DNA of 64,000 nucleotides from Lentisphaera profundi (GTDB lineage: Bacteria > Verrucomicrobiota > Lentisphaeria > Lentisphaerales > Lentisphaeraceae), in assembly GCF_028728065.1 (NCBI RefSeq), contig NZ_CP117811.1, positions 2,046,001-2,110,000 of the forward strand, given 5' to 3'. Below, in pieces: positions 2,255-55,377 of this stretch. The position numbers and the translations under genes are program-made. The notes under the pieces are model-generated. The model had not been told where the DNA came from, did no database searches, and was given only the letters and a program-made list of their open reading frames with translations. How positions within the stretch are numbered: position 1 is the first letter of the stretch; each line of letters begins with the position of its first letter.

Positions 2255-3732
2255 GTGTCGGCTCTTTTAGAAATACGTCAGATTAGCAAGCAATTCCCCG
2301 GCGTGAAAGCTCTTGATCAGGTGAGTTTCAGTATCAATCCGGGGGAATGCCTCGCGCTAATTGGCGAAAATGGCGCTGGGAAATCAACGCTCATGAAAAC
2401 TATTGGCGGAGTCCACCAACCCACCGGGGAGAAATATTGGTCGAAGGTCAAAGAGTCCAAATTCATTCCGTTGTCGACTCAGCTGAACTCGGTATTGGTT
2501 TTGTTCATCAGGAACTCAATATTTTAGACAATATCGATGTCGCCGGCAACATTTTTCTCGGTCGCGAAGATCGCAAATTTGGTCTCATACGCCAAAAAGA
2601 ACTTCACAAAAAAGCAGCGCCTTATTTAAAACAATTGGGTTTGAATATCTCTAGCTCTAGCAAGCTCATAGATTTAACCATCGGGCAGCAACAAATGGTG
2701 GAAATTGCCAAGGCTCTTTCGATGAATGCTCGCCTGATCATTATGGATGAACCCACCTCTAGTTTAACCTTACAAGAAACTGATCAACTACTCGCCACTA
2801 TTGAATCTCTCAAGGCAAAGGGTATTGCCGTCATCTACATTTCTCATCGTCTTAAAGAAATTGAGCAATGCGCCGATCGTGTCGTCGCTTTGCGGGATGG
2901 GAAAAATGCTGGTGAACTCACTAAAACTGAAATTAATTACGACGCCATGGTTACACTCATGGTGGGCCGCGAACTCACCTCGATTTATCATAAGCCCGAG
3001 ACAGAGAAAAAAACGGCCCTATTTAAAGTTAAAAAACTTCGTACTTCCACTTATCCTGAGCACGAACTCAATTTTGAACTTGCGGGAGGTGAGATTCTGG
3101 GATTTGCCGGACTCGTGGGTGCAGGACGGTCAGAAATGGCTCAAGCAATCTTTGGCGTTGATCCCGCACTTGAGGGTCACTTAGAACTCGATGGGAAAAT
3201 TATGGTGCTCAACACCAAACAAGCCATCAAAAATGGTATCTACCTCATTCCTGAAGATCGTAAAAAAAGTGGCCTTATCTTAGATATGACCATCCGCCAA
3301 AACATGAGCCTTCCCTCTTTGAAAGAGTACTCAAAAAATGGCCTCATTCAGAAAGCTGGAGAAAAACAGCTGGCACTTGAGCAAATCCAAAAAATGAAAA
3401 TCAAAGTACCCGATGATAGCTACACTGCCTCGACTCTAAGTGGCGGTAATCAACAAAAAATAGTTTTGGGTAAATGGATGTCCATGAATCCGAAAGTCAT
3501 CATTTTTGATGAACCAACTCGAGGAATCGATATCGGTGCTCGCAGCGAGATCTATACACTCATGAACCATTTAGCGGCACAAGGTTGTGCCATTATCATG
3601 ATTAGCAGTGATATGGAAGAAGTCTTGGGTATGAGTGATCGCATTTGTGTTATGCACGAAGGCAAACTCACTGGCACACTCAAGAGGTCTGAATTTAGCG
3701 AAGAATCCGTCATGCAATTGGCGGTTCAGTAA
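2255..3732 (+). CDS. Sugar ABC transporter ATP-binding protein (RbsA-like), frameshifted
   Basis: The gene encodes a two-cassette sugar importer ATPase of about 492 residues (family about 500) but is split between two frames. The first part starts at a GTG and carries Walker [10 protein letters not shown]. After 'GGVHQPTG' the frame is lost, and the homologous continuation (GEILVEGQR...FVHQELN) lies in the -1 frame to the stop. One extra G in the GGGG run at 2426-2429 restores a continuous protein. The second part has Walker B '[11 protein letters not shown]', the second cassette's degenerate P-loop (GLVGAGRSE), signature 'LSGGNQQK' and '[11 protein letters not shown]'. It is either a recent pseudogene or a homopolymer sequencing error; the intact permease and binding protein favour the latter. 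Confidence 0.85.
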
Positions 3733-3770
3733 AAGGAAATAATGATTTTAAATTGGGCCGGAGCCACCTG

Positions 3771-3838
3771 TTCGCCTGCTTAAGGACTGGCAAGTCCTTA
3801 CAGGGGAGCACGAGGGGACAGAGTCCCTCTCGTACACC
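3771..3838. repeat. Dispersed palindromic repeat, copy 1
   Basis: This intergenic stretch between the importer ATPase and permease contains two hairpins: AAGGACTGGCAAGTCCTT and CGAGGGGA...TCCCTCTCG. The reverse complement is closely similar to segments at 56501-56560 and 57246-57314, sharing GCCTGCTTAAGGA, TGGCAA and the CGAGRGGGA/TCCCTCTCG stem. It lies inside a transcription unit, so it could form an mRNA stem-loop that separates permease from ATPase expression (inference). Confidence 0.7.
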
Positions 3839-3879
3839 AAACTTCAAACTAGAGCTTTTTAATCGATAAAGGAATAGAC

Positions 3880-4899
3880 ATGAATCAATTTTTAAAAAAT
3901 CACCGTAAAGAAGTAGGCATGACTGCCCTGCTCCTTATCCTCTGTATTTGGACTGCTGTAGGTTCTGATGGCCGCTTTCTTTCTCCCATCAATATCTCTA
4001 ACCTACTACGTCAAGTAGGCCTCTTTGGTATATTTAGTATGGGCATGGGACTCGTTATTATCAGTTCTGGAATCGACCTTTCCGTTGGTTCGCTTATGTC
4101 TTTATTGGGAGTGATCTTTTTCTATACTCTGACAGGCAGTTCTCCCGTTATTTGGATCCCCGAACTCTCCTGGCCCCTAGGACTGCTCTTAGTTGTTGGC
4201 GTCTCACTCATCATTGGCTTTATTTATGGTCTGCTCATAGGCAAGTATAAAATGCAGGCTTTTATCATCACCCTATGTGGTTTACTCTCCTATCGCGGAC
4301 TCTCTCGCTACATCGCCGAAGATACTTCCGTTGGTTATATCGATAGTAAACAAAACCTCGATTTCCTCTATTCGGCCTGCTCTGGCAGTATTAGCCTGGG
4401 CACCGTCAAAGTTCCCATGGCCTTCATTTATATGCTCATTATCGCCGCTATCATGTTTGTTGTTTTACACAAATCGGTTTTTGGTCGCTACCTCTACGCT
4501 GTGGGTCGCAATGAAGAAGCGACTAAATATTCGGGTATCAACACCAACAAAATCATTATTGCTGTTTATATGATCAGCTGCTTACTCACTGCGATTTCCG
4601 CAATTCTCTTTTCTTTTTACACCAGTTCAATTACTCCCTCAGTTCACGCCAATTTTTACGAACTCTACGCGATTGCAGCTGCGGTCTTGGGTGGATGTAG
4701 TCTGCGCGGTGGCGAAGGTTCCATCTACGGAATTATTGTGGGTACTATTATTCTTCTCGTCATTCAAAATATGATTAACTTACTCGGTTATCCCAGCTCA
4801 CTGGCCGATGCCATTACTGGCCTCGTCATTTTCTTTGGTGTTCTTTCCGACGAAGTTCTCAGCACAAAATTACTCTCATTTTTCAAACGAAAAGCCTAA
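3880..4899 (+). CDS. Sugar ABC transporter permease (RbsC-like)
   Basis: 339 residues, almost entirely hydrophobic with eight to ten predicted membrane segments. It contains the family region '[15 protein letters not shown]' near residues 65-80 and the EAA-like loop '[19 protein letters not shown]' that contacts the ATPase. It is the inner-membrane channel for the sugar bound by the upstream lipoprotein. It is separated from the ATPase gene by about 150 bases holding a palindromic repeat, whereas the sulfatase gene follows after only 11 bases. Confidence 0.92.
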
Positions 4900-4910
4900 G
4901 GAATTCTAAA

Positions 4911-5577
4911 ATGAAAATTTTAATATCGCTCCTTATAAGTTTACTCTTTTCTTCATCGCTTTTAGCCCGCGAGTCAACAAAACCAAATATCATACTCATT
5001 TTCACTGATGATCTGGGATATCAGGATGTGGGCTGCTTTGGAGCTCCAAATATAAAAACTCCGAATATTGATCAAATGGCAGCAGAAGGCATGAAGTTTA
5101 CTAGCTTTTACGCTCAGACTGTTTGTGGGCCATCACGCGCTGCTTTAATGACGGGCTCTTATCCTCTACGTGTGGCGAAGAAAAATAATATTGTGGAAAT
5201 TCATCCTCGACTACACACAAATGAAATCACCATTGCTGAAGTCCTAAGACCGGCGGGTTACACCAGTACCTGTATCGGCAAATGGGATTTAGCGGGTCAT
5301 TCTCCGACTAAATATGATCCTGAATTATTGCCTTTGAAACAGGGCTTTGACACTTTCTTTGGCACACCTGCGAGTAATGATAAACTCGTCACTCTGATTC
5401 GTGGTCAAAAAATGATTGAGAAGAAAGTGGACATGAGTACCCTCACCAAAAGATATACAGATGAAGCGATTCAATTCATTAAGGCTAATCACAAGAAACC
5501 ATTTTTTGTTTATCTAGCGCATACGATACCTCATACCAAGCTTGCCGTTTCAAAAGAGTTTAAGGGCAAATCGAAGT
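4911..5577 (+). pseudogene. Type I sulfatase, 3' half lost to an IS remnant
   Basis: The N-terminal half of a secreted formylglycine sulfatase. It has a signal peptide (residues 1-19), metal ligands Asp33-Asp34 in FTDDLGYQD, the formylglycine site CGPSR at Cys72, and a basic '[12 protein letters not shown]' strand. Homology stops after 'SKEFKGKSK'; the frame then runs about 18 unrelated residues to TAA at 5628-5630. Intact family members are about 450-500 residues, so the C-terminal subdomain is missing. The sequence after the break reads as a transposase C-terminus in another frame. Probably non-functional. Its position after the sugar importer suggests desulfation of an imported or periplasmic sugar. 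Confidence 0.85.
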
Positions 5578-5865
5578 GTTTTTCAAACAGATCAAACAAA
5601 AATTGCAAATCTCTGATTTACTTGGCATAACAAAAATACCATTCGATGGCAAGTTTGGACAGCATTATTGACTTACGTGCTTTTGCGATTTTTAGCCTTT
5701 CAAAGTAAGTGCAAATATTCTTTCTCAATAATATCCACCGTTATCCGTGGCGTACTTTGGTCGATGTTTGAGTTGTACTCAGTCCTCAAATCCTGTGGGA
5801 CAGCAAGTGATTCACCCAAGCTATACTCAACTCCCCCTCAGTAGTATTTGCCGGGGTTTACATAA
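5576..5865 (+). pseudogene. IS4-family transposase C-terminal remnant
   Basis: Starting within the sulfatase reading region, the frame beginning at about 5576 reads [17 protein letters not shown], a characteristic end-of-domain segment of IS4-type DDE transposases. After the AAAAA run at 5632-5636 the homology continues in the neighbouring frame as NTIRWQVWTALLTYVLL, then GVLWSMFELYSVL and SCGTAS, ending QQAYLPGF-like with an internal TAG at 5842. One extra A would join the two frames. No N-terminal half, DDE Asp residues or inverted repeats remain. This is the debris that truncated the sulfatase. Confidence 0.75.
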
Positions 5866-6041
5866 AATCTATGGGACAGTCAATGACTGAGCCTTCGTCA
5901 AAACCAAAACATCCATCTAATGAACAGAAGGTATTTACACGGGGAAATATATTAAAGAGTCAGTTTTTCCTGTTCTATGGGATGACTGTGATTTTTTTGT
6001 ATTAAAAGAGCAATATTATAAATTTTTTATATAGCAGGGCT
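5866..6041. other. Non-coding tail after the IS remnant
   Basis: A 176-base stretch between the transposase remnant and the end of the AraC-type gene. It may include the old IS terminus. No gene, hairpin or inverted repeat pair could be supported by eye. Confidence 0.4.
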
Positions 6042-6736
6042 TCACTTCTTGACTCGAAATTTTAAAACGTATTTTAATGGTGTTAGACCAATTTGTTTCT
6101 TGAAAGTATTGCTAAATGAACTTTGATCGCAAAAGCCTAATTCATAGGCGACTTCCGCAATATTCATATTTTTTTTAGTCAATAATTTACATGATTTTAG
6201 AATCTTGAGTTTGATAATATATTGCCGCACAGTGCATTCAAAAATCTCTTTAAAGCGCACCTCGAATTGCCGTACTGAAAGGCCCGCTATTTTGGCTAAT
6301 TGCTTGTTGCTTAATTTATCGCAGTAATTCTCTTTGATGAAATCTAGAGCTCGATGGATTTCTATATAGGGCCGAGCAAGGCGATCAGAATTTTCATAAG
6401 GTATGAGTGTGCCACATATCCCCTCTACTTTTCCTGCTTGATTAAACAAAGGAATTTTACTTGTTTTGAACCAATTCAAATCACCGAGGTAATTGGGAAA
6501 TAATTCAATGATATTATATTTTGGAACAGCGGATTTTAGGATCTCTAGGTCATCGTTTCTGTATTGAGTCGCCAGTTCATAAGGAAATATATCAAAATCG
6601 TTTTTACCAATAAGTTGCGAAACTAAATCATAGCCCATATGCTTTGATAAAAGCTGATTTGCTGCGATAATTTCACAATCTTTATTTTTCACAAAAATAA
6701 AACATCATGGACTCCTTCAAACAGTTCAACTACCAT
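6042..6736 (-). CDS. AraC-family regulator with N-terminal PAS domain, probably frameshifted near the start
   Basis: The open frame from GTG at 6692 gives 216 residues: a PAS domain (about 1-95), then an AraC DNA-binding domain with two helix-turn-helices (LAKIAGLSVRQFEVRFKE and 'IAEVAYELGFCDQSSFSNTFKK'). The PAS begins mid-strand (VKNKDCEIIAAN). The missing first strand, MVVELFEGVHDVLF, is encoded just upstream from ATG at 6736 in another frame. One extra base in the five-base homopolymer at 6693-6697 joins them. The gene diverges from the large haem/HEAT gene and is the obvious candidate regulator for it. The PAS may sense a small ligand. Confidence 0.8.
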
Positions 6737-6835
6737 CGGGCTCAAGCATAAGTTGCTAAGGGGATTAACCATAAATAAAAATCTCTCTTTAGGATAATTT
6801 AACTTAAAAATAATTCATCCATTATTAAATAACAA

Positions 6836-6857
6836 CGCTTTTTTACAAAAAAAGATA
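6836..6857. promoter_or_regulatory. Shared 22-bp palindromic element, copy 1
   Basis: CGCTTTTTTACAAAAAAAG followed by ATA, with palindromic core CTTTTTT-AC-AAAAAAAG. The same 22 bases recur at 12253-12274. This copy ends 117 bases before the start codon of the haem/HEAT gene and lies in the divergent region with the AraC-type regulator. Probable operator or activator site (inference). Confidence 0.55.
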
Positions 6858-6973
6858 AAAAATATGCAATACTTATTTATGGTTTGAGTCAATATTTATA
6901 ACAGTATTACCATTTTCATAACGACATAGTTAGTAAATTATCTAACTATAAATAACTAAGGATTAATCTATAT

Positions 6974-9900
6974 ATGAAGTCCATGAGAATCTTTCTAAGT
7001 TTAATGATACTCCCCGCAATTATATCAGCGCAAGGAATTCAGGCTAAACGATCCATTCCCTACTCTCCAGAACAAGAGAAAGCGACCTTCCAACTTGCCG
7101 ATGGATTTGTCGCCGAGCTCGTTGCCTCAGAAAAAAATGGGCTCATCAACCCCATCGATCTTACCTTTGATGATGCAGGACGACTTTGGACGCAAACAGC
7201 TCAAATGTACCCTTTAGATCCTATTACTGGTATTCATTTCGGCAAAGCGATGCGGATGATGCGTGACCCCAACTTGGCGAAGAAGGATCCTCGATTCACA
7301 AAAATGAGGAAATTGTACCGCTTGGAAGAAAAGGGCCAAGATAAAATACTTATTATTAATGATCCCTCCAAAGCTGTGCAAGGCCAAATTAAATCATGGG
7401 CAGATGGCTTGACGATACCGCAAAGTATCATGCCCTACAAAAATGGTTGTTTTGTCGCCCATGGCTCAGAATTATTCTTCCTCAGTGACGAAAATAAGAA
7501 TGGTAAACAAGATAAAATGACCCCCGTTTTAACGGGCTTTGGCTTTTTCGATACGCATACCATGGCTCATTCAATCGTTCGTGCCCCCGGTGGCTGGATG
7601 CAACTTTCACATGGAGCTATTAATTCCGGACTTGTTACGGCGGTGAAATCTGGCAAAAAACAAGAAATTACCTTTAGTAAAAATCTGCGTTTCTCTACTG
7701 ATGGCAAAGAGCTAGAACTCGTTAATTGCCATAAGGATAATAACTGGGGCTATCAATTACGCGCCAACGGCCAGTGGTATTCAACATCGGCCAATGATGG
7801 CGGCTACTCGGTTTTTCCCTCAGAAGCCCAAAGTAGTATCCCTGGAATTGGTGGGAAAAAGATCCGTCAGTACTCCCCCTACATGCCAAACCTTCACAAA
7901 TTCCGTGTGGGTGGTTCGGGTATTTCTGGACTCGCTTTCTCTGAAGATGGTGCCCAGGGCTTCCCTGCCGAATGGAAAGATGTGGCTATTTTAGCTAATC
8001 CGATAACGAACTCAATTAATTGTGTTAAAATCATTAGAAAGCCCGATGGTTCAATTGAGGCTAAGCACCTAAAAGATCTTCTTGTCTCTAAGGACAAATG
8101 GTTTCGCCCAGTTAATATCGAATTTGGCCCTGACGGCTGCTTATATGTAGCTGATTGGTACAACAAAATTATTTCTCATAACGAAGTCTCTACAGACCAC
8201 CCCGACCGCGACCGCAAGCATGGACGTATCTGGCGAATTCGCCATAAATCCCAAAAGCCCCTAAGTATACCGAACGTGGCCCAAGCTCCCGACTCAAAGC
8301 TGATCCATCACTTAGTACAAGGAAAAACACTATGGGAAAAGCGCGCTGCTTGGCATCAAATTGAAGAGCGCCAGGCGAAAGAACTGTTTCCACAGCTCGT
8401 CAAAGTAGCTATAAATCAAGAAATAAGTAAAGAAAGTCGCATCCTCGCACTCTGGTCTATGGAAGCTTTAAAGATCTTTAATCAATCGACTCTTCAAGGA
8501 TGCATTGCCGACTCCGATGCCGACATCCGCCGTGAAGCAATTCGTTCACTTGCTTCCTATAATCTTTCCTCAAAAATTGTAGCTGTACTCCTTACGACCC
8601 CTTTGAACGATAAAAACGCCATGGTCCGCTCACAAGTTTTAAGAACCTTAGATGAAATCCATAACGCCGATGACTCCACCATAAGCTTATTGATCCAAGC
8701 CTGTAAGCCCGCTGCTCCAAACGATGCTCTCGGCGGAAATTACGAACGTAACTTCGAGCGTTTCCTAGCTCGCAAAGCCCTTGAAAGGTACCCTAATGAA
8801 TTAAAGAATTTTCTTGCAAAGACCGATTATTCTAAGCTAGCGACAACAAATATTTTGTGGGCGATCCAAGCTTTGCCGGCACAAGAATTGAGTAAAGTTT
8901 TTGTCCAGATTTGGGGGGAAGCTTCATCTGGAAATATTGATGCCAATACTTTTATAGCCATTAGTAAAATCCTTAATAACCCAGCTGTTCGTCAAGCCGT
9001 CACACCTACTTTCCACAAACGACCAGAAGAATTTCTGCAAATCGCATTAGCAAATATAGACAAAATTAACATCGCTAATATCTCGAGCCTTTATGCCGAG
9101 AGTATTGAAAGCGACCTTGCCTCAAATTCACTAACAAATAGAAATAAAGCACTTGATCTCATTATTCAATTACAGTCCCCTCACCATAGCAAGACTTTGC
9201 TACAACTCATCAAAGGTGGAGATGATAAAAGTAAAATCATCCAAGCACTCGGCAATACGCCTCATTTAGCATTTGATATCTATAGGCAATTATTTTTCCA
9301 AGAAAACTTAAACTTCACTCAAAAATTGTCTATTTTTGCTGCCTACGCCATCAAGAATGAAAGCTCCGCATTAATAGACTGTAAGCTCTGGTTTCCTCAT
9401 CTCACGAAAAATCAAAAAGGTCAAGTAGTGAACCATTTATCCTATACGCGTCAAGGGAACAACATCCTTAAAAACTTATGGGAGATTTCTTACTTAGCGG
9501 ATAATCAATGGGACTATAATTCAGCATATCGAACAATGAGCTCTTCAAAACGTGATTGGCGAGGTCAAAAAATCTATGAATATGCTAATAGTCAAGAACA
9601 AATCGCCATCAATAAACGAAAAGATCAAATAGAGAAATTCATTCACTCGAGTGCTAAAACCCAAGGTAATGTTACGCTAGGAAAAGCCTTTTTTCAAACT
9701 TGCTTAACTTGTCACAAAGTCGGAGACCAAGGCCAAAGTATTGCCCCTCCACTAGATGGCTCCGCCAATCGTGAACGTGAGCACATTATCACAGCTATCG
9801 TGAACCCAGATGAAGCCATGGAAGGGGTTTATGGACTCTACTCAGCCGTTAGAAAAGACGGCTCCTACCTCGAAGGCTACCTCGCCAAAAATGATGCTAA

Positions 9901-10066
9901 CGGGATAACGATTGCGACTATGGGAGGCTATAAAAGCTTTATACCTAAGGCAAATATTCTTTCTCATGGATCCGTGCACAAAAGGTCTTTTATGCCCAAT
10001 GGTTTTGGTGAGCTCAGTGAGCAATCCATGGCAGACCTTCTCGCTTATATAAAGACACTTAAATAA
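6974..10066 (+). CDS. PVC-type beta-propeller / HEAT-repeat / cytochrome c secreted dehydrogenase-like protein
   Basis: 1030 residues with a signal peptide (about 1-24). An N-terminal beta-propeller resembling glucose/sorbosone dehydrogenases spans about 30-420 ('YVADWYNKIISHNE', then a 'HGRIWRI' end). A HEAT/PBS-like helical repeat region covers about 440-880. A C-terminal mono-haem cytochrome c domain carries CLTCH at Cys920-Cys923-His924, with a downstream Met ligand candidate in SFMPNGF. In PVC bacteria this architecture marks membrane-associated, electron-transferring dehydrogenases of unknown substrate. It is followed by a DUF1080 protein and a pseudopilin in what looks like one transcript. 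Confidence 0.88.
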   Translation: MKSMRIFLSLMILPAIISAQGIQAKRSIPYSPEQEKATFQLADGFVAELVASEKNGLINPIDLTFDDAGRLWTQTAQMYPLDPITGIHFGKAMRMMRDPNLAKKDPRFTKMRKLYRLEEKGQDKILIINDPSKAVQGQIKSWADGLTIPQSIMPYKNGCFVAHGSELFFLSDENKNGKQDKMTPVLTGFGFFDTHTMAHSIVRAPGGWMQLSHGAINSGLVTAVKSGKKQEITFSKNLRFSTDGKELELVNCHKDNNWGYQLRANGQWYSTSANDGGYSVFPSEAQSSIPGIGGKKIRQYSPYMPNLHKFRVGGSGISGLAFSEDGAQGFPAEWKDVAILANPITNSINCVKIIRKPDGSIEAKHLKDLLVSKDKWFRPVNIEFGPDGCLYVADWYNKIISHNEVSTDHPDRDRKHGRIWRIRHKSQKPLSIPNVAQAPDSKLIHHLVQGKTLWEKRAAWHQIEERQAKELFPQLVKVAINQEISKESRILALWSMEALKIFNQSTLQGCIADSDADIRREAIRSLASYNLSSKIVAVLLTTPLNDKNAMVRSQVLRTLDEIHNADDSTISLLIQACKPAAPNDALGGNYERNFERFLARKALERYPNELKNFLAKTDYSKLATTNILWAIQALPAQELSKVFVQIWGEASSGNIDANTFIAISKILNNPAVRQAVTPTFHKRPEEFLQIALANIDKINIANISSLYAESIESDLASNSLTNRNKALDLIIQLQSPHHSKTLLQLIKGGDDKSKIIQALGNTPHLAFDIYRQLFFQENLNFTQKLSIFAAYAIKNESSALIDCKLWFPHLTKNQKGQVVNHLSYTRQGNNILKNLWEISYLADNQWDYNSAYRTMSSSKRDWRGQKIYEYANSQEQIAINKRKDQIEKFIHSSAKTQGNVTLGKAFFQTCLTCHKVGDQGQSIAPPLDGSANREREHIITAIVNPDEAMEGVYGLYSAVRKDGSYLEGYLAKNDANGITIATMGGYKSFIPKANILSHGSVHKRSFMPNGFGELSEQSMADLLAYIKTLK

Positions 10067-10087
10067 TTAGACAAGGATATAAATCAT

Positions 10088-11539
10088 ATGAAATTTTTCT
10101 TAAGCATCATTTTTGCCCTTCTGCTGACTATCTCCGCATTACCAAGTTCAGAAAAAGAAACCGTCCTTTTTGATGGTAAAAGCCTTGATGGCTGGGTTCC
10201 TGTCAATAAAAATAACGCCAAGTACTGGTCGGTTATCGATGGTGTGATTAGCGCCAGCAACGGCAATAAAAAGATGCCGACAAATACTTATTTAGCGACT
10301 AAAAAACTTTACCAAAACTTTGAATTTAAATGTAAATTCCGCTTAAGTGGCGATCATAAAACGGGACTTATCAATAGCGGCATTCAGTACCGCTCTATCC
10401 TCAAAAAATTACAAGGACAAGAGGGGATAAACAAAATAATTGGTTATCAGGCTGATATCGGCAAGGGCTATTGGGGAGACATCTATGACGAACACCGTCG
10501 CGGTAAACTCTTAAAAGCCACCACCAAGGAACTCTTTAGAAACTTCAAAGAAGACGCCTGGAATGAATACATCATTCGTTGCCGTGATGATAAGCACGAG
10601 CTCTATATTAATGGTCATAAAACTGCTGAATATACTGAAAACAATCCCAAAATCGAAAACTATGGCGTCATTGCTTTACAACTTCATAGCGGTGGCATCG
10701 CCAGAATGGAGTATAAAGATATAAGGATCACAGAATTCCCTCCTACTGAACGGATGCTGCCTTTGAAAATCACGGCGCATCAGACAAAAATCTACGGTAA
10801 AACCATGCATGTGCGCAATGATGTGGTTGTTTCCTGGAACAAAACAAATGAGTACCTCGAATGGACTGTTCCTCAAAGTTTTGAAAGTGGAGCTTATAAT
10901 ATTGAACTCAACTATCAATGTGATATCAATCGCCAAGGTTCTGAAATGCTTTTTATTGCCGGTTTACAAGAAAAAAGTTTTTTAACCAAAAGTAAAAGAA
11001 AAAAATGGGGCCCAGAAACAGAAGCCTTAGGAGCCTTTCACCTAAAAGCAGGTGATAAAATCCAATTGCGTTGTAAGAAGCTAAAAGCTGATTGGGTTTT
11101 GGACTTTATGAATATAAAATTTTCTCCCTCTAAATTAAGCAAAGTCACTACTCTAAAATTCCACCCTCATCACACCAAGATTTATGGTACAACACTAAAA
11201 AAAGCTAGCAATATGATTGTGTCGTGGAACAAGATCAATGAGTACTTAGAATGGACCTATCCCGATAATTATCCTAAAGCAAGCTTCTCGATCACTCTAA
11301 ATTATATGAATGATGTGAATCGCCAAGGCTCACAAATGATTTTCACTATTAACGAAAAAAGCAAAGATTTTGTCACCAAAAGTCAAAGGCAACAATGGGG
11401 CCCCGAGCAAGCATTCCTTGGGAATTTTGATTTGAAACCAGGTGATAAAATCCAATTGCGTTGCAAAAGTTTAAAGGCTGACTGGGTGATGGATTTCCTA
11501 AGTCTTCAATTAAGTCCTCGACTAAAAATAACAATATAG
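10088..11539 (+). CDS. DUF1080 (3-keto-disaccharide hydrolase-like) protein with two C-terminal repeat modules
   Basis: 483 residues with a signal peptide (1-19). Residues about 25-215 form a DUF1080 jelly-roll: 'LFDGKSLDGWVPV', then 'NSGIQYRS' and 'GVIALQLHSGG'. Two homologous modules of about 115-120 residues follow. Both contain TKIYG, VSWNK-NEYLEWT, DVNRQGS or DINRQGS, WGPE, and GDKIQLRCK-LKADWV-DF. The repeat is most easily read as a tandem duplication of a sugar-binding-like beta module. DUF1080 proteins include 3-ketoglycoside hydrolases, which fits an adjacent dehydrogenase-like gene (inference). RBS AAGGA precedes the ATG. Confidence 0.85.
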   Translation: MKFFLSIIFALLLTISALPSSEKETVLFDGKSLDGWVPVNKNNAKYWSVIDGVISASNGNKKMPTNTYLATKKLYQNFEFKCKFRLSGDHKTGLINSGIQYRSILKKLQGQEGINKIIGYQADIGKGYWGDIYDEHRRGKLLKATTKELFRNFKEDAWNEYIIRCRDDKHELYINGHKTAEYTENNPKIENYGVIALQLHSGGIARMEYKDIRITEFPPTERMLPLKITAHQTKIYGKTMHVRNDVVVSWNKTNEYLEWTVPQSFESGAYNIELNYQCDINRQGSEMLFIAGLQEKSFLTKSKRKKWGPETEALGAFHLKAGDKIQLRCKKLKADWVLDFMNIKFSPSKLSKVTTLKFHPHHTKIYGTTLKKASNMIVSWNKINEYLEWTYPDNYPKASFSITLNYMNDVNRQGSQMIFTINEKSKDFVTKSQRQQWGPEQAFLGNFDLKPGDKIQLRCKSLKADWVMDFLSLQLSPRLKITI

Positions 11540-11550
11540 GAATATTAAAA

Positions 11551-12240
11551 ATGAAAAAATTCACACTTATTGAAGTCCTTGTGGTTGTCGCTATTATTGG
11601 AATACTAGCTTCTTTAACTTTACCTGCTTTAGGCAAAGCAAGACAAAAGGCTTTTCAAGCTCAATGCCTTAATAATCATAAACAATTACTCAATGCACAG
11701 GCAACTTTTTTAACTGACTCCGAATATTTCCAAACAGCTTGGCATAATGGTCACCTCCCTGATACTGCACCAGCTGGTATGACCGCAGGAGCCCAAAACC
11801 ATGTATGGGTTTGGGCTCTAAATACTTATTTAACATCCTGGGACATTCTTTTCTGTCCTAAGCGTGAAGGGGTAAACTTACACAACAACTATGGTTGGAA
11901 TTGGATGGGAGAAGACGAAGATGCAAACTGGGATGGAATGGGACTTACTCACGACGGCCGATACAATAGAGGAGCTGCAGTTGCTACGAGTGGTGTAAGT
12001 AAGCCTTCTAACACGATTTTACTCAGCCCCTCTTGGTCGCGTGGCGCAAACGGGGGAGTTGACGATTGGGTTGCCACTCCTCGAGTGAAATTATTTACTG
12101 ATAAACCAGTTACTGGTGGTAGCTTCACCCCTCACAGGGGTGATAATGTCGCTAATGTAAGTTTTATCGATGGTTCGGCTCGTGGCTTGAGTGTAGGAAC
12201 GCTTTTTTCAGACACAAGTTTATGGAATAAGGATAAATAA
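11551..12240 (+). CDS. Type II secretion-like pseudopilin (DUF1559-like)
   Basis: 229 residues starting MKKFTLIEVLVVVAIIGIL, the conserved prepilin leader with Phe4 at the processed N-terminus and Glu8 at mature position +5. One hydrophobic helix follows, then a globular C-terminus with Trp-rich segments and the 'VSFIDGSARGLS' ending seen in Lentisphaera/planctomycete DUF1559-like proteins. The leader's Gly is replaced by Lys. It lies 11 bases after the DUF1080 gene, in the same direction. It presumably sits in the envelope; partner and function are unknown. Confidence 0.88.
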   Translation: MKKFTLIEVLVVVAIIGILASLTLPALGKARQKAFQAQCLNNHKQLLNAQATFLTDSEYFQTAWHNGHLPDTAPAGMTAGAQNHVWVWALNTYLTSWDILFCPKREGVNLHNNYGWNWMGEDEDANWDGMGLTHDGRYNRGAAVATSGVSKPSNTILLSPSWSRGANGGVDDWVATPRVKLFTDKPVTGGSFTPHRGDNVANVSFIDGSARGLSVGTLFSDTSLWNKDK

Positions 12241-12252
12241 AATTATGACCTG

Positions 12253-12274
12253 CGCTTTTTTACAAAAAAAGATA
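12253..12274. promoter_or_regulatory. Shared 22-bp palindromic element, copy 2
   Basis: Identical over 22 bases to 6836-6857 (core CTTTTTTACAAAAAAAG). It ends 123 bases before the start of the PEP-hydrolase-like gene, almost the same spacing as copy 1 to its gene. It also follows the pseudopilin stop closely, so it could alternatively be part of a bidirectional A/T terminator. Confidence 0.55.
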
Positions 12275-12334
12275 TTTAACTACAATACACGAAGCAAGTA
12301 GACGTTTAACTACAATACACGAAGCAAGTAGACG
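12275..12334. repeat. Two tandem 30-bp direct repeats upstream of the PEP-hydrolase-like operon
   Basis: The unit begins TTTAACTACAATACACGAAG and ends CAAGTAGACG; two perfect copies lie head to tail, immediately after the shared 22-bp element. They are about 60 bases upstream of the next start codon, the usual place for an activator's tandem sites. Function is inferred from position only. Confidence 0.75.
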
Positions 12335-12397
12335 TTTAAATTCTAATACTTAAAGACAAAAATCTTTAATCAATAAAATTTTAAAAGGAATACAATT

Positions 12398-13267
12398 ATG
12401 CCAAATCAATGGACAGGAAAAGGAAACCCCTACACAAGAACTGAAGTACTCGAACGCCTTCATGATACGCTAGGTCGTAATGAGTCTATTATCGTCGGTG
12501 GTGCAGGCTCTGGCATCTCGGCTAAATTTATTGAGAAAGGTGGCGCTGACCTTCTCATCGTTTATGCATCAGGTCGTTTCAGAATGGCCGGACATGGCTC
12601 TATCGCTGGCATGATGGCCTACGGCGACGCCAATGAAATTGCCATGGATTTAGGTGAGTATGATGTACTCCCTACAGTAGAAGAAATCCCCGTCATCTGT
12701 GGTGTCCATGCTTCTGACCCGAGAAGGCGTATGTGGCATTGGCTCGGTAAAGTCAAAGACATGGGCTTTAGTGGCATCAACAACTTCCCAACACATACGA
12801 TTATTGACGGTAACTTCCGGACTTCCCTAGAAGAAACGGGCATGGGAGTACAGAAAGAAATTGACTGTGTCGCCCTAGCTCGCAAGATGGACATGTTTAC
12901 AATTACTTATGTCGCCAACCCCGAAGAAGCTAAAAAAATGGCTGAAGCTGGCGCTGACGTCATCATTGCCCACGTAGGTTGCACTATTGGTGGGTCAATA
13001 GGTGTGAGTACCGCAGCAGACTCCCTTGATTTAGCCGCTCAAAGAACCCAGGCCATTATTGAAGGTGCAAAGTCTGTTCGTGACGACGTCATCTTCCTCA
13101 GTCATGGTGGCCCCATTGCCACGCCCGCAGATGCCGCTTACATCAATGAAAAAACCGATACCGTAGGCTTCGTTGGCGCCTCCAGTATAGAACGCTTAGC
13201 TGTTGAAAGATCCATTACAGATTTGACTCGAGAATTCAAATCTATTCCCGTAAAAAGAAAGAGCTAA
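12398..13267 (+). CDS. Phosphoenolpyruvate hydrolase-like TIM-barrel protein
   Basis: 289 residues matching the PEP_hydrolase (PF09370) group of TIM-barrel proteins. It has an early 'IVGGAGSGISAKF' phosphate-binding-type loop, 'ADLLIVYASGRFRMAGHGS', 'DMGFSGINNFPT' and a late 'HVGCTIGGSIG' strand. In known genomes this family is adjacent or fused to Tm-1-like (UPF0261) proteins, and here the Tm-1-like gene starts two bases after this stop. The activity has not been firmly established for the family, so the name is a family label. AAAAGGA precedes the ATG. Confidence 0.88.
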   Translation: MPNQWTGKGNPYTRTEVLERLHDTLGRNESIIVGGAGSGISAKFIEKGGADLLIVYASGRFRMAGHGSIAGMMAYGDANEIAMDLGEYDVLPTVEEIPVICGVHASDPRRRMWHWLGKVKDMGFSGINNFPTHTIIDGNFRTSLEETGMGVQKEIDCVALARKMDMFTITYVANPEEAKKMAEAGADVIIAHVGCTIGGSIGVSTAADSLDLAAQRTQAIIEGAKSVRDDVIFLSHGGPIATPADAAYINEKTDTVGFVGASSIERLAVERSITDLTREFKSIPVKRKS

Positions 13268-49978: not shown

Positions 49979-52956
49979 TTAGTAAACACTAAGTGTTTCG
50001 TGGAGATTAAAAATCAGTCTTGCTACGGAGCCATAGGCGGCTAAATCAATTTTATTATATTTGTCTGCGTCTTTTATTTTTAGGCTGAGTAAAAATTTAT
50101 CCGCATCTTGGGGTGAGGACATAAAATAGGCTTGTTGATCCTGATAAAATGCTGTCAACTCTTGGAGTTCATCACGGCCAATAGGACGTGTAAGGGCGTG
50201 CTGTAACATCCATTCAATGACATTGCTTTCAGGACTCGCTATTGCCTGCTTTGCAAATGCACCCGCGGCTTCCAAGAAACTCGGATCATTGAGCAAAGCG
50301 AGTGATTGCAAAGGTGTATTGGATGCCGATCGACGGGCATTGCAGGTATCGGCAGAAGGAGTATCAAACGCTTTTAACATAGGGTGTAAAAAGGTTCTCT
50401 GACGATGGATGTAGAGTCCTTTACGGTACTGATTCTGATCCTTGTCTACCTGATAGGTTCGTCTAGGAAAATTGAGCTGAGCATAATAGCCTGCGGGTTG
50501 ATAGGGTTTAATACTTTTGCCCCCCACAGTTTTATTCAACAAGCCACTCATTTGCAAAATATTATCGCGAATAAATTCGGCTTCTAAACGCCGTGCATTT
50601 TGTCTTGCTAGCTTAATATTAAAGGGATCAGAGTTCACCAAAGTGGCATCGCGTTCAGTACTCTGACGATAGGCCTTGGACATAAGGATGCGTTTGACGG
50701 CATTTTTTACATTCCAATTGTCCTTCCTAAAACTCCAAGCGAGGTAATCCAAGAGCTCAGGATTATCGGGTGTTTCGCCCTGTGAACCGAGGTCTTCCAC
50801 CACTTGCGATAAGCCTCGACCAAAATACAAATACCACAGGCGGTTCACAAAGACTCGTGCAGTCAGCGGATTTTGTTCCGAGACTAACCAATTCGCTAAA
50901 TCGAGTCTATTGGCTCTACCTTCTTTTTCAATTTTCCCTAAGAAAGCAGGAATGGCGGGCTCGACGATTTCGCCACTCTCATCTTGCCAATTACCACGAG
51001 CTAAAACACGTGTTATCATCGGCTTGACTGCTTCGGTGATTTGGCAATCAGCCCTACCGTAATCCAGGGATTCAGCTTGAGCTTCAAGTTTGTCCAAGTG
51101 CTTATGAAGCGGTGAAAATTCTGCTAATAATCGAGTGAAGGCTTCTAAGTTTTTCAGTCTTGCAATTGCATAATCTTGAGGCTTGATATCTTTTGAACTT
51201 AATTCTAGGTCAAAGCGACCCGCCATGTGTGCTGAATGTATACTTTGGAATTTTAAAGTGACTTCTATCTGACCCTTAATCATTCGTTCTAGCTTGAGCA
51301 CCGCATGTCTATTCTCGCCAAGTTTTGTCTGGCCAGATATCGCCCAGCCTCTATTAGCTTTCTTACTAGCTGTAATAAGATTTTTCACTGGGAAGCCGCC
51401 TTGAGAAAAATCTGCGGCTGCAGCAGTAATTTTAACCGGTATTTTTTCACCTCCCTTATTAATCTCATTAATTTCGATGACCGACAGAACGACATTACCA
51501 TTGCCAATCCCAAGCTTATTGCGATAAGTCGGATCCACCAAGAAAGCGAGCATCAGCTTATCGGCGGGTGTGCTCTGATTGAGGCTGATGATATAATTAT
51601 CTTTATCACTTCTATTCTTCTTCCTCAAAAATGAGCCATCACTTAATTTTTTAAAGTTGGCACCATGGGTACTTTTTACAGTCGTGATTTTGGTCTCAGC
51701 ATTTTTTTTGGAATCGATTTTCCATTGTTTGTATCTAGCTTGAATACTCTTAGAATCACTCAAGTCTTTAATCTCTTTATCCACTATCTCGAGTTCTTTT
51801 TTCACTGGTGCAAACTTGATCATCTTTTGCTGATCAATAACTTGCATGATGGGGGATAAACATAACCCTTTTTATCTTTACCTTGATAAACACCTTGTTG
51901 TTTTATATCCGCAAAAAACGCTGAAAAGGCATAGTAGTCCTTAGCCGTAAAGGGATCAAACTTATGATCGTGACATTCCGCACAACCTAGAGTAGAGCCC
52001 ATCCATGCCGTTGTAGTTGTACGAACTCGGTCACCCGAGTACTTGGCGAGATATTCTTTGGCTTGCGCTCCGCCCTCACTGGTCATCATATTTAAACGAT
52101 TATAGGCCGAGGCAATCAATTGTTCCTCACTAGGTTTTTCTTGCAAGAGGTCGCCAGCTAATTGCTCCCGCGTAAAATCATCAAAACCCTTATTCGAATT
52201 AAAGGCATTGATCACATAGTCTCGGTAGGGATAAACACGTTGATTTTGATCACCGTGGTAACCCACGGTATCGGCGTAGCGCACTATATCTAACCAATGC
52301 ACCGCCATTTTTTCACCATAGGCCTGATCCTTTAAAAAGCTATCAATCAAAGTCTCCCAGGCATTTGAGCTCTTGTCAGCTAGAAATTGATCGACTTCTT
52401 TTTGAGTGGGCGCTAGGCCCCGCAAATCAAAACTTAAGCGGCGAATCAAAGTTATTTTATCCGCAGCTTTATTTAAACTTAGGTCTAAAGGACTTAATTT
52501 AGCTTCAATGAGCGTGTCGACTGAATCCTTTTTATTTGGTAGCGCAATAGACTCATAAGACCAATGATCCTCATACTCGGCACCTTCTTTTATCCATTGC
52601 TTAATTGTCGCTTTTTCTTTTTTGCTGAGGCTTTTATGCGAATCAAGTGGTGGCATGATGTCATCTTCATCATCCGTAATCAACCTTTCCCATAAGAGAC
52701 TGTCTTCGGGATTCCCTGGAATAATAACCGCATCCAAAATCCTCTTTTTACCACTCTTACTTGTGTAGTGACGTTCCTTCGCCGCTAAATCAAAAGTGTG
52801 TAATTGCAGTTTCCCTTTAATATCATGGGCATCTGGACCATGACAGGCAAAACATTTGTCTGATAAAATGGGACGAATATCTTTGTTAAAGCTTATGTCT
52901 TCTGCACTAGAAATAAAGCCAAAACAGAGAAGTGAAGTATATAAAATTTGCTTCAT
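49979..52956 (-). CDS. PSCyt1 / DUF1549 / DUF1553 protein, frameshifted
   Basis: From ATG 52956 the first frame covers signal peptide (1-18), a planctomycete cytochrome c domain with CFACH at Cys35-Cys38-His39, and DUF1549 including CAECHDHKFDPF. It is lost at 'GYVYPP' just before 51820. The remaining 620 residues (linker and DUF1553, 'RVFVNRLWYLYFGRGLSQ', 'RLEAEFIRDNIL', 'NARRSASNTPLQSL') continue in the next frame. One more base in the GGGGG run at 51851-51855 gives YPPIMQVIDQQKM in one frame. Total about 990 residues, normal for the family. Partner of the DUF1501 gene; likely a secreted haem protein of unknown reaction. Confidence 0.87.
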
Positions 52957-53403: not shown

Positions 53404-54606
53404 ATGAAAATGCGTAAGCATAAAAGAAAGCTTCACTTCTCCCTTGTAGAATTATTTACGGTCTTACTGATCAATCTTATTATTGCGGCTTTAATTTTCC
53501 CAACTTTTTTTGGAGAAGTAAAATCCAATAATACTTTAGCTGCTAATGATCTTCAGCAAAATGAAGCCCTCAAAGAAGATCTCATGCAAATTGAAAAGGC
53601 CTTAGATGAAATAAACCAAGATGAATCTAAAGGTCTATATAGTTTAGCAAAAGTCAGTTTTAAAATAGATCAGCCAGTACTTCAAAGATCTGCAGTGGAA
53701 ACGGTATTGCTAGGCCTCATGAAAAACAAACACCCTCAGACCAGTGCTTATCGCCAAGCCGTAAAAAAGCGCTTAGGTGAAAGATTTATTGCGTTCACCA
53801 GTGGCAGTGATTTCGTGATAACATGTCTAAGTTGCCAAGGAGAAGGTCATACTAAAATTGATTGTAAGTCATGTGTCGGTGGAGAATGTAAAAACAATTC
53901 TTGCTCAGCTGGTTCTATTATCTACAAAGGACTTAATGGCAAAAAAGTAAAAAAAACTTGTCCCACCTGTAAGGGGAAAGGTGCATGTACCAAATGCACA
54001 AGCGGTGGCAATATTTTACTACGTTGCCGACAATGCTCTGGCAAAGGAAAAATCATTACTTATAAAAATGTCCCAAAACTATATAACAATGCTCTTAGCC
54101 AGCTTCGCAAACTTACTAAAGATATCAACAATGATCTGAAAAGTGGCAACGCGATACTTTCTAAGTCACAACAAACTGAAATCAATCCTCCTCAAGTAAG
54201 TCCCTATAAGCAAAGACAAGTGCCACGAAAAACACATAAACCCGTAGCAATTGCTAGCCAAGTAAAGCCACAGAAAACTCCGCCGCACCTTAAACTCGTT
54301 CTAGAAGAATTTTATGATCATTTAAAAGCTAAACAACGTCAAAGTGGTATAACTTTGGCTTCGCGATTATTTGCTTTGGATCAAGATAGTAATGGCAACT
54401 ACACAACAACTCTTTACCTCACTGCGAGTGATGACTTCATTAAAAATGAGCGCCGAGAAGATTTTTTAATTGGCTTATATGAATTTTGGAAATTGCGCTG
54501 TGGCTCAAACCGCGTCCTTCGATCTGGTGGCGCCTGCATTATCCTCTTGGATAAAAATGAGAGCGTCATTGCTGTAGCCTATAGTGCCGAAGATATAAAA
54601 TTTTAA
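53404..54606 (+). CDS. Pseudopilin-like membrane protein with DnaJ-type cysteine-rich domain
   Basis: 400 residues. After a basic leader (MKMRKHKRKLH) comes FSLVELFTVLLINLIIAALI, which looks like a prepilin helix with Glu at +5, though the cleavage-site Gly is His11. Residues 141-215 hold CLSCQGEG, CKSCVGG, CPTCKGKG, CTKCTSGG and CRQCSGKG, the DnaJ CxxCxGxG zinc-finger pattern. A Lys/Pro linker (about 255-290) leads to a C-terminal alpha/beta domain. No J-domain is present. The combination could give a periplasmic zinc- or thiol-active pseudopilin. No known family fits the whole chain. Confidence 0.72.
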   Translation: MKMRKHKRKLHFSLVELFTVLLINLIIAALIFPTFFGEVKSNNTLAANDLQQNEALKEDLMQIEKALDEINQDESKGLYSLAKVSFKIDQPVLQRSAVETVLLGLMKNKHPQTSAYRQAVKKRLGERFIAFTSGSDFVITCLSCQGEGHTKIDCKSCVGGECKNNSCSAGSIIYKGLNGKKVKKTCPTCKGKGACTKCTSGGNILLRCRQCSGKGKIITYKNVPKLYNNALSQLRKLTKDINNDLKSGNAILSKSQQTEINPPQVSPYKQRQVPRKTHKPVAIASQVKPQKTPPHLKLVLEEFYDHLKAKQRQSGITLASRLFALDQDSNGNYTTTLYLTASDDFIKNERREDFLIGLYEFWKLRCGSNRVLRSGGACIILLDKNESVIAVAYSAEDIKF

Positions 54607-54801: not shown

Positions 54802-55377
54802 TCATGAGTCAAGGGCACTCCAAGGTAGCCAAGGAAGACCTTCGCGCAGTGCGATTCTTTGCGTCTGTGTAGCATTGCTGCGATAACCATAGACACGAAT
54901 CCCAAAAATGTGCACCATCAGACAGGCCGCACGAGTCTGACTTACTTCGGCATCGTATTCTTTTTCCAAATATTGGCATAGAAGAGCTTCCCCCTCGATA
55001 AGCATTTCAACGGCGAGTTTATACAGTGTATTGCCCGTTGCAGCCAACTCAAGTTGAGTTTTGATAACAAAACAACTGCAGTAATCGGAACTCTCAGAGT
55101 CTGAAATAAATAACTCAAAAAGATTACAGATTCCTTCACCCACACTTGCTGCCTCATCTAAAACCGTCGCCATTCGTTTCTGGTGAATTTTCGCGTAATG
55201 CTTAAGCGCCTCGCAAAACAAACCTTGCTTACTACCAAATTCATTATAGAGACTGCCTGGTTTCAAGCCGGTAGACTCCTTGAGTTGTTGCATGGAAGTG
55301 GCATAAAATCCATGTTCCCAAAATAAAGCGACCGCCCGATCAAGGACTTCATCGCGATCAAATTGTTTTTTTGCCAT
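54802..55377 (-). CDS. TetR/AcrR family transcriptional regulator
   Basis: 191 residues. The N-terminal helix-turn-helix reads FDRDEVLDRAVALFWEHGFY, then 'TSMQQLKESTGLKPGSLYNE' and FGSKQGLF. The rest is a helical ligand-binding domain with several Cys (SSDYCSCFV). It is divergent from the SDR gene, and two palindromes TTGAACGAT-ATTCAA/CGTTCAA lie between them, so it probably represses both genes until an effector, perhaps an aldehyde or quinone, binds. Confidence 0.92.
   Translation of the reverse strand: MAKKQFDRDEVLDRAVALFWEHGFYATSMQQLKESTGLKPGSLYNEFGSKQGLFCEALKHYAKIHQKRMATVLDEAASVGEGICNLFELFISDSESSDYCSCFVIKTQLELAATGNTLYKLAVEMLIEGEALLCQYLEKEYDAEVSQTRAACLMVHIFGIRVYGYRSNATQTQRIALREGLPWLPWSALDS

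Follow-up and report, generated by a model that had tools for sequence, protein, structure and literature searches.

What could a protein do that begins like a prepilin, continues with paired cysteines like those of DnaJ, and ends in a domain that belongs to no named family? The question is raised by a gene in a 64,000-nucleotide window (positions 2046001-2110000 of contig C1) from a two-contig, 5.46-Mb genome (G000) of the genus Lentisphaera. The frame at 53404-54606 on the plus strand is intact. The gene is apparently monocistronic, with a 447-bp gap upstream to a minus-strand gene and a convergent, minus-strand TetR gene at 54802 downstream. Scanning the locus for Rfam families and terminators gave no match, and promoter-like sites there were no more numerous than in shuffled sequence. 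No secretion genes are linked to it; the type II secretion system (T2SS) clusters lie far off in the genome. Also in the window, two overlapping minus-strand open reading frames (ORFs; 51820-52956 and 49979-51847, together 49979-52956) look like a frameshift-split DUF1549/DUF1553-type protein. The features of the gene are as follows:

53404..54606, plus strand: whole gene, ATG start, 400 amino acids plus stop
53404..53436, plus strand: basic leader MKMRKHKRKLH (residues 1-11), with His at -1 in place of Gly
53437..53502, plus strand: prepilin-like helix FSLVELFTVLLINLIIAALIFP (residues 12-33), with E+5 (E16) and P+22 (P33)
53515..53796, plus strand: start of the region homologous to a long paralog (residues 38-131), predicted helical
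53824..54048, plus strand: zinc module (residues 141-215), six Cys pairs, putatively metal binding
54145..54255, plus strand: linker (residues 248-284), variable and low confidence
54277..54603, plus strand: C-terminal domain (residues 292-400), predicted helix-strand-strand-helix-strand-strand, not in Pfam

The N-terminus reads MKMRKHKRKLH/FSLVELFTVLLINLIIAALIFPTFF, with Phe at +1, and a cut by the prepilin peptidase PilD is predicted between H11 and F12. It has the short basic peptide, hydrophobic helix, and Glu at +5 of a class III leader, and the helix spans residues 14-31 in a low-confidence structure model of the full-length protein. For reference we used 43 distinct pseudopilin N-termini from the same genome, a sample and not a census, drawn with a DNA pattern that included E+5 and not P+22. 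Both residues occur in 43/43 of these sequences and are kept in the window protein. On a profile of the set the N-terminus of the window protein scored 15.1 bits (E 0.0068 within the set), a value equaled or exceeded by 1/5000 helix shuffles and 0/5000 full shuffles; the background ORFs that scored higher all read as pseudopilins. Given that typical pseudopilins reach 64-72 bits on the same profile, far above this score, the N-terminus is best described as a diverged member of the prepilin-type helices. Searching the genome with residues 1-60 returned 88 other places, largely in the same register, with most alignments starting at about residue 4-11 and ending at 36-55, and those inspected were pseudopilins. 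An unguided sequence search of the PDB placed a Geobacter pilin at the top (residues 3-55, E 0.022), and GspG gave a weak NCBIfam/Pfam match over residues 12-64 (E 0.022). The prepilin-like N-terminus described in the first-pass annotation is thus beyond chance by profile, shuffles, genome matches, and the PDB search, and the comparisons support a prepilin-type (class III) signal.

That annotation also considered processing uncertain for want of a leader Gly. Neither Gly nor Ala stands at -1, where the window protein has His, and the PilD enzymes characterized so far cleave after Gly or Ala (PMC3244431). The -1 residue in the 43 sampled pseudopilins was K in 21, R in 7, S in 5, N in 4, G in 2, and another residue in 4, so that Gly is absent in 41/43. 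It is also absent in 4/4 pseudopilins of a T2SS cluster, in which GspG starts MKKRY/FSLIE (PF08334, 59.7 bits) and three adjoining pseudopilin-like genes, confirmed by weaker NCBIfam matches, have K, S, and S at this position. Because most pseudopilins of this genome lack Gly at -1, the window protein is not set apart by lacking it: the absence is real but ordinary here, and is no special obstacle to the predicted cut. A genome-wide scan for the prepilin pattern gave 116 matches, against 7 in a reversed control, and with Gly this rare and matches this numerous, Lentisphaera would be a good test case for the requirements of prepilin peptidases.

The genome encodes PilB/GspE, PilC/GspF, and secretins, as well as a single PilD-like protein, in which A24_N is recognized and the A24 domain itself falls just below the cut-off. 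This protein (L084 5088-6242, minus strand, 384 amino acids) matches A24 in two separated pieces with a long insertion between them. A T2SS-type cluster (L159, G000:C2:1636000-1652000, at 3182-12408, minus strand) includes GspE, a secretin, GspF, GspG, and further pseudopilins; the -1 residues of its pseudopilins are Y, K, S, and S. Pseudopilin-like genes are very abundant in this genome (e.g., window positions 11551-12240), and nearly all of those sampled are without Gly at -1. One pseudopilin-like protein of 630 amino acids (L156 516-2408, minus strand) carries a DNADDNADDN repeat and long Ala/Glu-rich stretches.

The cysteine-rich region had been annotated as five CxxC motifs of DnaJ type. 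The motif type holds; the count does not, as the 12 cysteines form six pairs, comprising five CxxC motifs and C162-x4-C167 (C141/144, C154/157, C162/167, C186/189, C195/198, and C208/211). Nearly all module-bearing relatives keep the six pairs, and the window protein keeps all 12 cysteines. The gaps between its pairs, 9-4-18-5-9, are near-palindromic, and the median gaps among relatives are 9-5-18-5-9. The outer gaps are equal (9/9 or 7/7) in 16/18 relatives, with both at 7 in two of the three relatives that have a 7, which fits a nested pairing of the cysteine pairs. A relative with 10/12 cysteines (L015, one lost each in pairs 2 and 4) and one with 11/12 (L005, pair 2) do not fit a nested 2:5 pairing neatly. 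DnaJ has four such motifs in nested pairing, and one further nested rung, with up to three zinc ions, is therefore the simplest prediction for six pairs; the spacing, too, points to a ladder like that of DnaJ, one rung longer. The structure model of this region is unreliable (pLDDT about 35-53) and gives no support for a zinc ladder.

Like the DnaJ central cysteine-rich domain (PF00684), the window protein has CxxCxGxG-type pairs around a hairpin. It differs from that domain in having six pairs and not four, spaced 9-4-18-5-9, in scoring below the Pfam cut-off (17.5 bits versus 32.7), and in belonging to an extracytoplasmic family. Neither Pfam nor NCBIfam matched a J-domain (HPD) in the protein, as the first-pass annotation had noted, and its relation to DnaJ, a type A J-protein, is by motif only. 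A DnaJ-type zinc domain without a J-domain, for which the window protein is a candidate, is found in the chloroplast proteins LQY1, CYO1, ZnJ2/BSD2, and PSA2. LQY1 is transmembrane and has protein disulfide isomerase (PDI) activity (PMC4754418, PMC3800646), and PSA2 is lumenal (PMC4754418, PMC3800646, PMC5818400). They differ from the window protein: four repeats are described for LQY1 and ZnJ2, and the chloroplast proteins have neither a prepilin helix nor this type of C-terminal domain.

The remaining part of the body is the C-terminal domain, for which profile searches of Pfam, NCBIfam, and PDB gave no credible match. It was annotated as unrecognized, which is correct, yet it is a real, recurring domain, present in 27 distinct stretches of Lentisphaeria proteins. 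Among 388 genomes drawn across the phylum we found it in 9, all of the same class. The proteins that carry it are exported or membrane anchored, and in them it comes after the zinc module, after a membrane anchor and an SH3-like stretch, or after a Ser/Thr kinase (L027). In structure prediction, run with alignments four deep, the C-terminal domain was modeled better (pLDDT 78, pTM 0.73), as alpha-beta-beta-alpha-beta-beta, than the full-length protein. Foldseek with this model returned no match at E below 0.001. A weak likeness to the T2SS pilotin AspS (E 0.11) was not counted as evidence, and a fold search with the full-length model (mean pLDDT 54, pTM 0.34) was set aside as meaningless at that confidence.

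Searched against 60 relatives, the window protein matched 13 genomes, and a profile search matched 20/198 genomes of the class. The closest is a longer paralog in the same genome (G000:C2:2352452-2354014), with apparent orthologs in two other Lentisphaera genomes (L002/L088 and L003). The helical region, the zinc module with its six pairs, and the C-terminal domain are all present in these long forms, at about 50% identity over the body. They have common gene neighbors, a phosphatase-like gene on one side and a small conserved gene on the other, which identifies the own-genome paralog as the inherited copy. The window gene is a second copy, present in one of three Lentisphaera genomes. An attempt to use the flanking TetR gene as a guide to the empty site in relatives yielded distant TetR matches only and no common flank.

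The two forms differ at the N-terminus. The long forms have no prepilin helix; they start with a Sec-type signal peptide, MEQFKMKKxFxLxxxxxINSLSA, and continue with about 115 residues that are absent from the window copy. Homology to the long form resumes near residue 38, and residues 34-75 are significantly similar to the L. marina long form. Neither the DNA nor the protein sequence of residues 1-44 resembles the paralog signal peptide significantly (p about 0.1-0.5), and we rejected derivation of the N-terminus from that signal peptide by internal deletion, for which a short LF.V..IN stretch common to both leaves small room. On these alignments the window gene is a domain swap, in which a prepilin helix stands in place of the Sec signal peptide and the roughly 115 residues after it.

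The same stretch would suit a plain, uncleaved signal anchor whose likeness to a prepilin helix is fortuitous or a product of drift in the ancestral signal peptide. Also in favor of such an anchor, the window protein has no Pfam N_methyl match, its score of 15 bits compares poorly with the 60 to 70 of typical pseudopilins, and Gly is missing at -1. We nevertheless consider this reading unlikely, given the rarity of shuffles that reach the score, P+22 as an independent match, the insignificant likeness to the paralog signal peptide, and the fact that N_methyl also narrowly misses a clear pseudopilin elsewhere in the window.

Other members of the family mostly have Sec-type signals or lipobox-like sequences (L106, L109), or plain anchors, as judged by eye and hydropathy. 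Among the relatives examined, the window copy alone has a prepilin motif. Neither the 198 genomes of the class nor the other searches yielded a relative with the same architecture; viral contigs gave no relative, and a literature search gave no paper that combined pseudopilin, DnaJ, and zinc finger. The window protein shares the six Cys pairs, near-palindromic spacing, and C-terminal domain by which we define this Lentisphaeria family, and departs from it at the N-terminus, where a prepilin motif takes the place of the family's Sec signal, lipoprotein signal, or plain anchor.

Since the relatives mostly have Sec signal peptides or lipoboxes, the zinc and C-terminal module belongs outside the cytoplasm, and the family is probably exported and zinc binding. 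The first-pass annotation had offered, as the contrary case, homologues with a plain membrane anchor, a cytoplasmic location, and a J-domain partner in trans; what the relatives mostly showed was export signals. A membrane-anchored co-chaperone of DnaJ-like type, J-less and located in the cytoplasm, would fit the DnaJ-like cysteine motifs, but the export signals of relatives and the basic leader ahead of the helix, which predicts the body outside, make it extremely unlikely.

Export by relatives also bears on the claim that the module is displayed on a secretion pseudopilus. A true minor pseudopilin would undergo PilD processing and become part of a type IV pilus or T2SS pseudopilus, with the zinc module as cargo or tip; it would fit the basic leader, F+1, E+5, and P+22, and the genome has complete T2SS-type clusters. 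The gene stands alone, unlinked to any secretion cluster, and no pilin or pseudopilin globular domain follows the helix, in contrast to T2SS pseudopilins and type IV pilins; the body consists of the zinc module and C-terminal domain common to non-pilin relatives, and the filament would need to fit about 30 kDa of them. Given this lack of linkage, and given relatives in which no pilin helix is needed for export of the body, pseudopilus display is not favored, and we regard the minor pseudopilin as unlikely. A bolder version, in which the swap would put a DnaJ-like, three-rung module under prepilin control, as a pseudopilus- or pilus-borne chaperone or thiol exchanger that acts on proteins in secretion transit, seems quite unlikely.

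We also considered a decaying duplicate without function. Its presence in one of three Lentisphaera genomes speaks for this, as does the tree, where the window protein groups with the long forms of the genus and has an end branch of 0.48 versus 0.07-0.24 for its relatives. The intact frame, the retention of all 12 cysteines and a conserved C-terminal motif, and a dN well under a saturated dS make this very unlikely. The dN is 0.39-0.42 and dS is saturated or above 2, values that leave the duplication undatable and fit purifying selection on the window gene.

Our preferred reading, to which we give about an even chance, is a holdase or thiol module that is tethered to the membrane and faces the periplasm, an extra and diverged copy of an extracytoplasmic Lentisphaera protein. 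From what the comparisons show (the homology, the domain swap, the helix statistics, and the conservation and spacing of the cysteines), we infer its topology, PilD processing, zinc binding, and activity. An extra copy of the zinc module and C-terminal domain protein would have acquired a prepilin-type helix in place of its Sec signal. On insertion the basic leader would remain in the cytoplasm with the body outside, PilD would probably cut and methylate the N-terminus, and the protein would stay tethered in the inner membrane and not be released. The six-pair module would most likely fold as a three-rung DnaJ zinc ladder (pairs 1:6, 2:5, and 3:4) and, without a J-domain, could work alone on exported proteins, either holding them or exchanging thiols, with the C-terminal domain binding a partner or substrate. 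A DsbD-type protein, encoded in the genome, might be available for periplasmic reduction. LQY1 and ZnJ2 provide a precedent, as DnaJ-type zinc proteins that have no J-domain and show PDI or holdase activity (PMC4754418, PMC3800646, PMC5818400). ZnJ2 is a zinc-binding holdase without reductase activity (PMC5818400), and the motif is thus no guide to activity by itself; by this analogy holdase and thiol activities are both plausible for the zinc module, and the motif does not decide between them.

The locus shows an unusual rearrangement, local to this gene, within a protein family not described before, and would represent a case in nature of a non-pilin protein whose Sec signal peptide has given way to a prepilin signal. 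It also reveals an unnamed Lentisphaeria family that joins a six-pair DnaJ-like zinc module to a new C-terminal domain, itself also attached to SH3-like and kinase proteins. We observed this domain in a Ser/Thr-kinase-bearing protein and in anchored SH3-like proteins (L027, L145, L143, and L117), with L145 and L143 lying beside kinase genes. In another Lentisphaera genome, a 168-amino-acid frame (L016 1351-1854) has the C-terminal domain after an AES repeat, without the zinc module, and is possibly a remnant.
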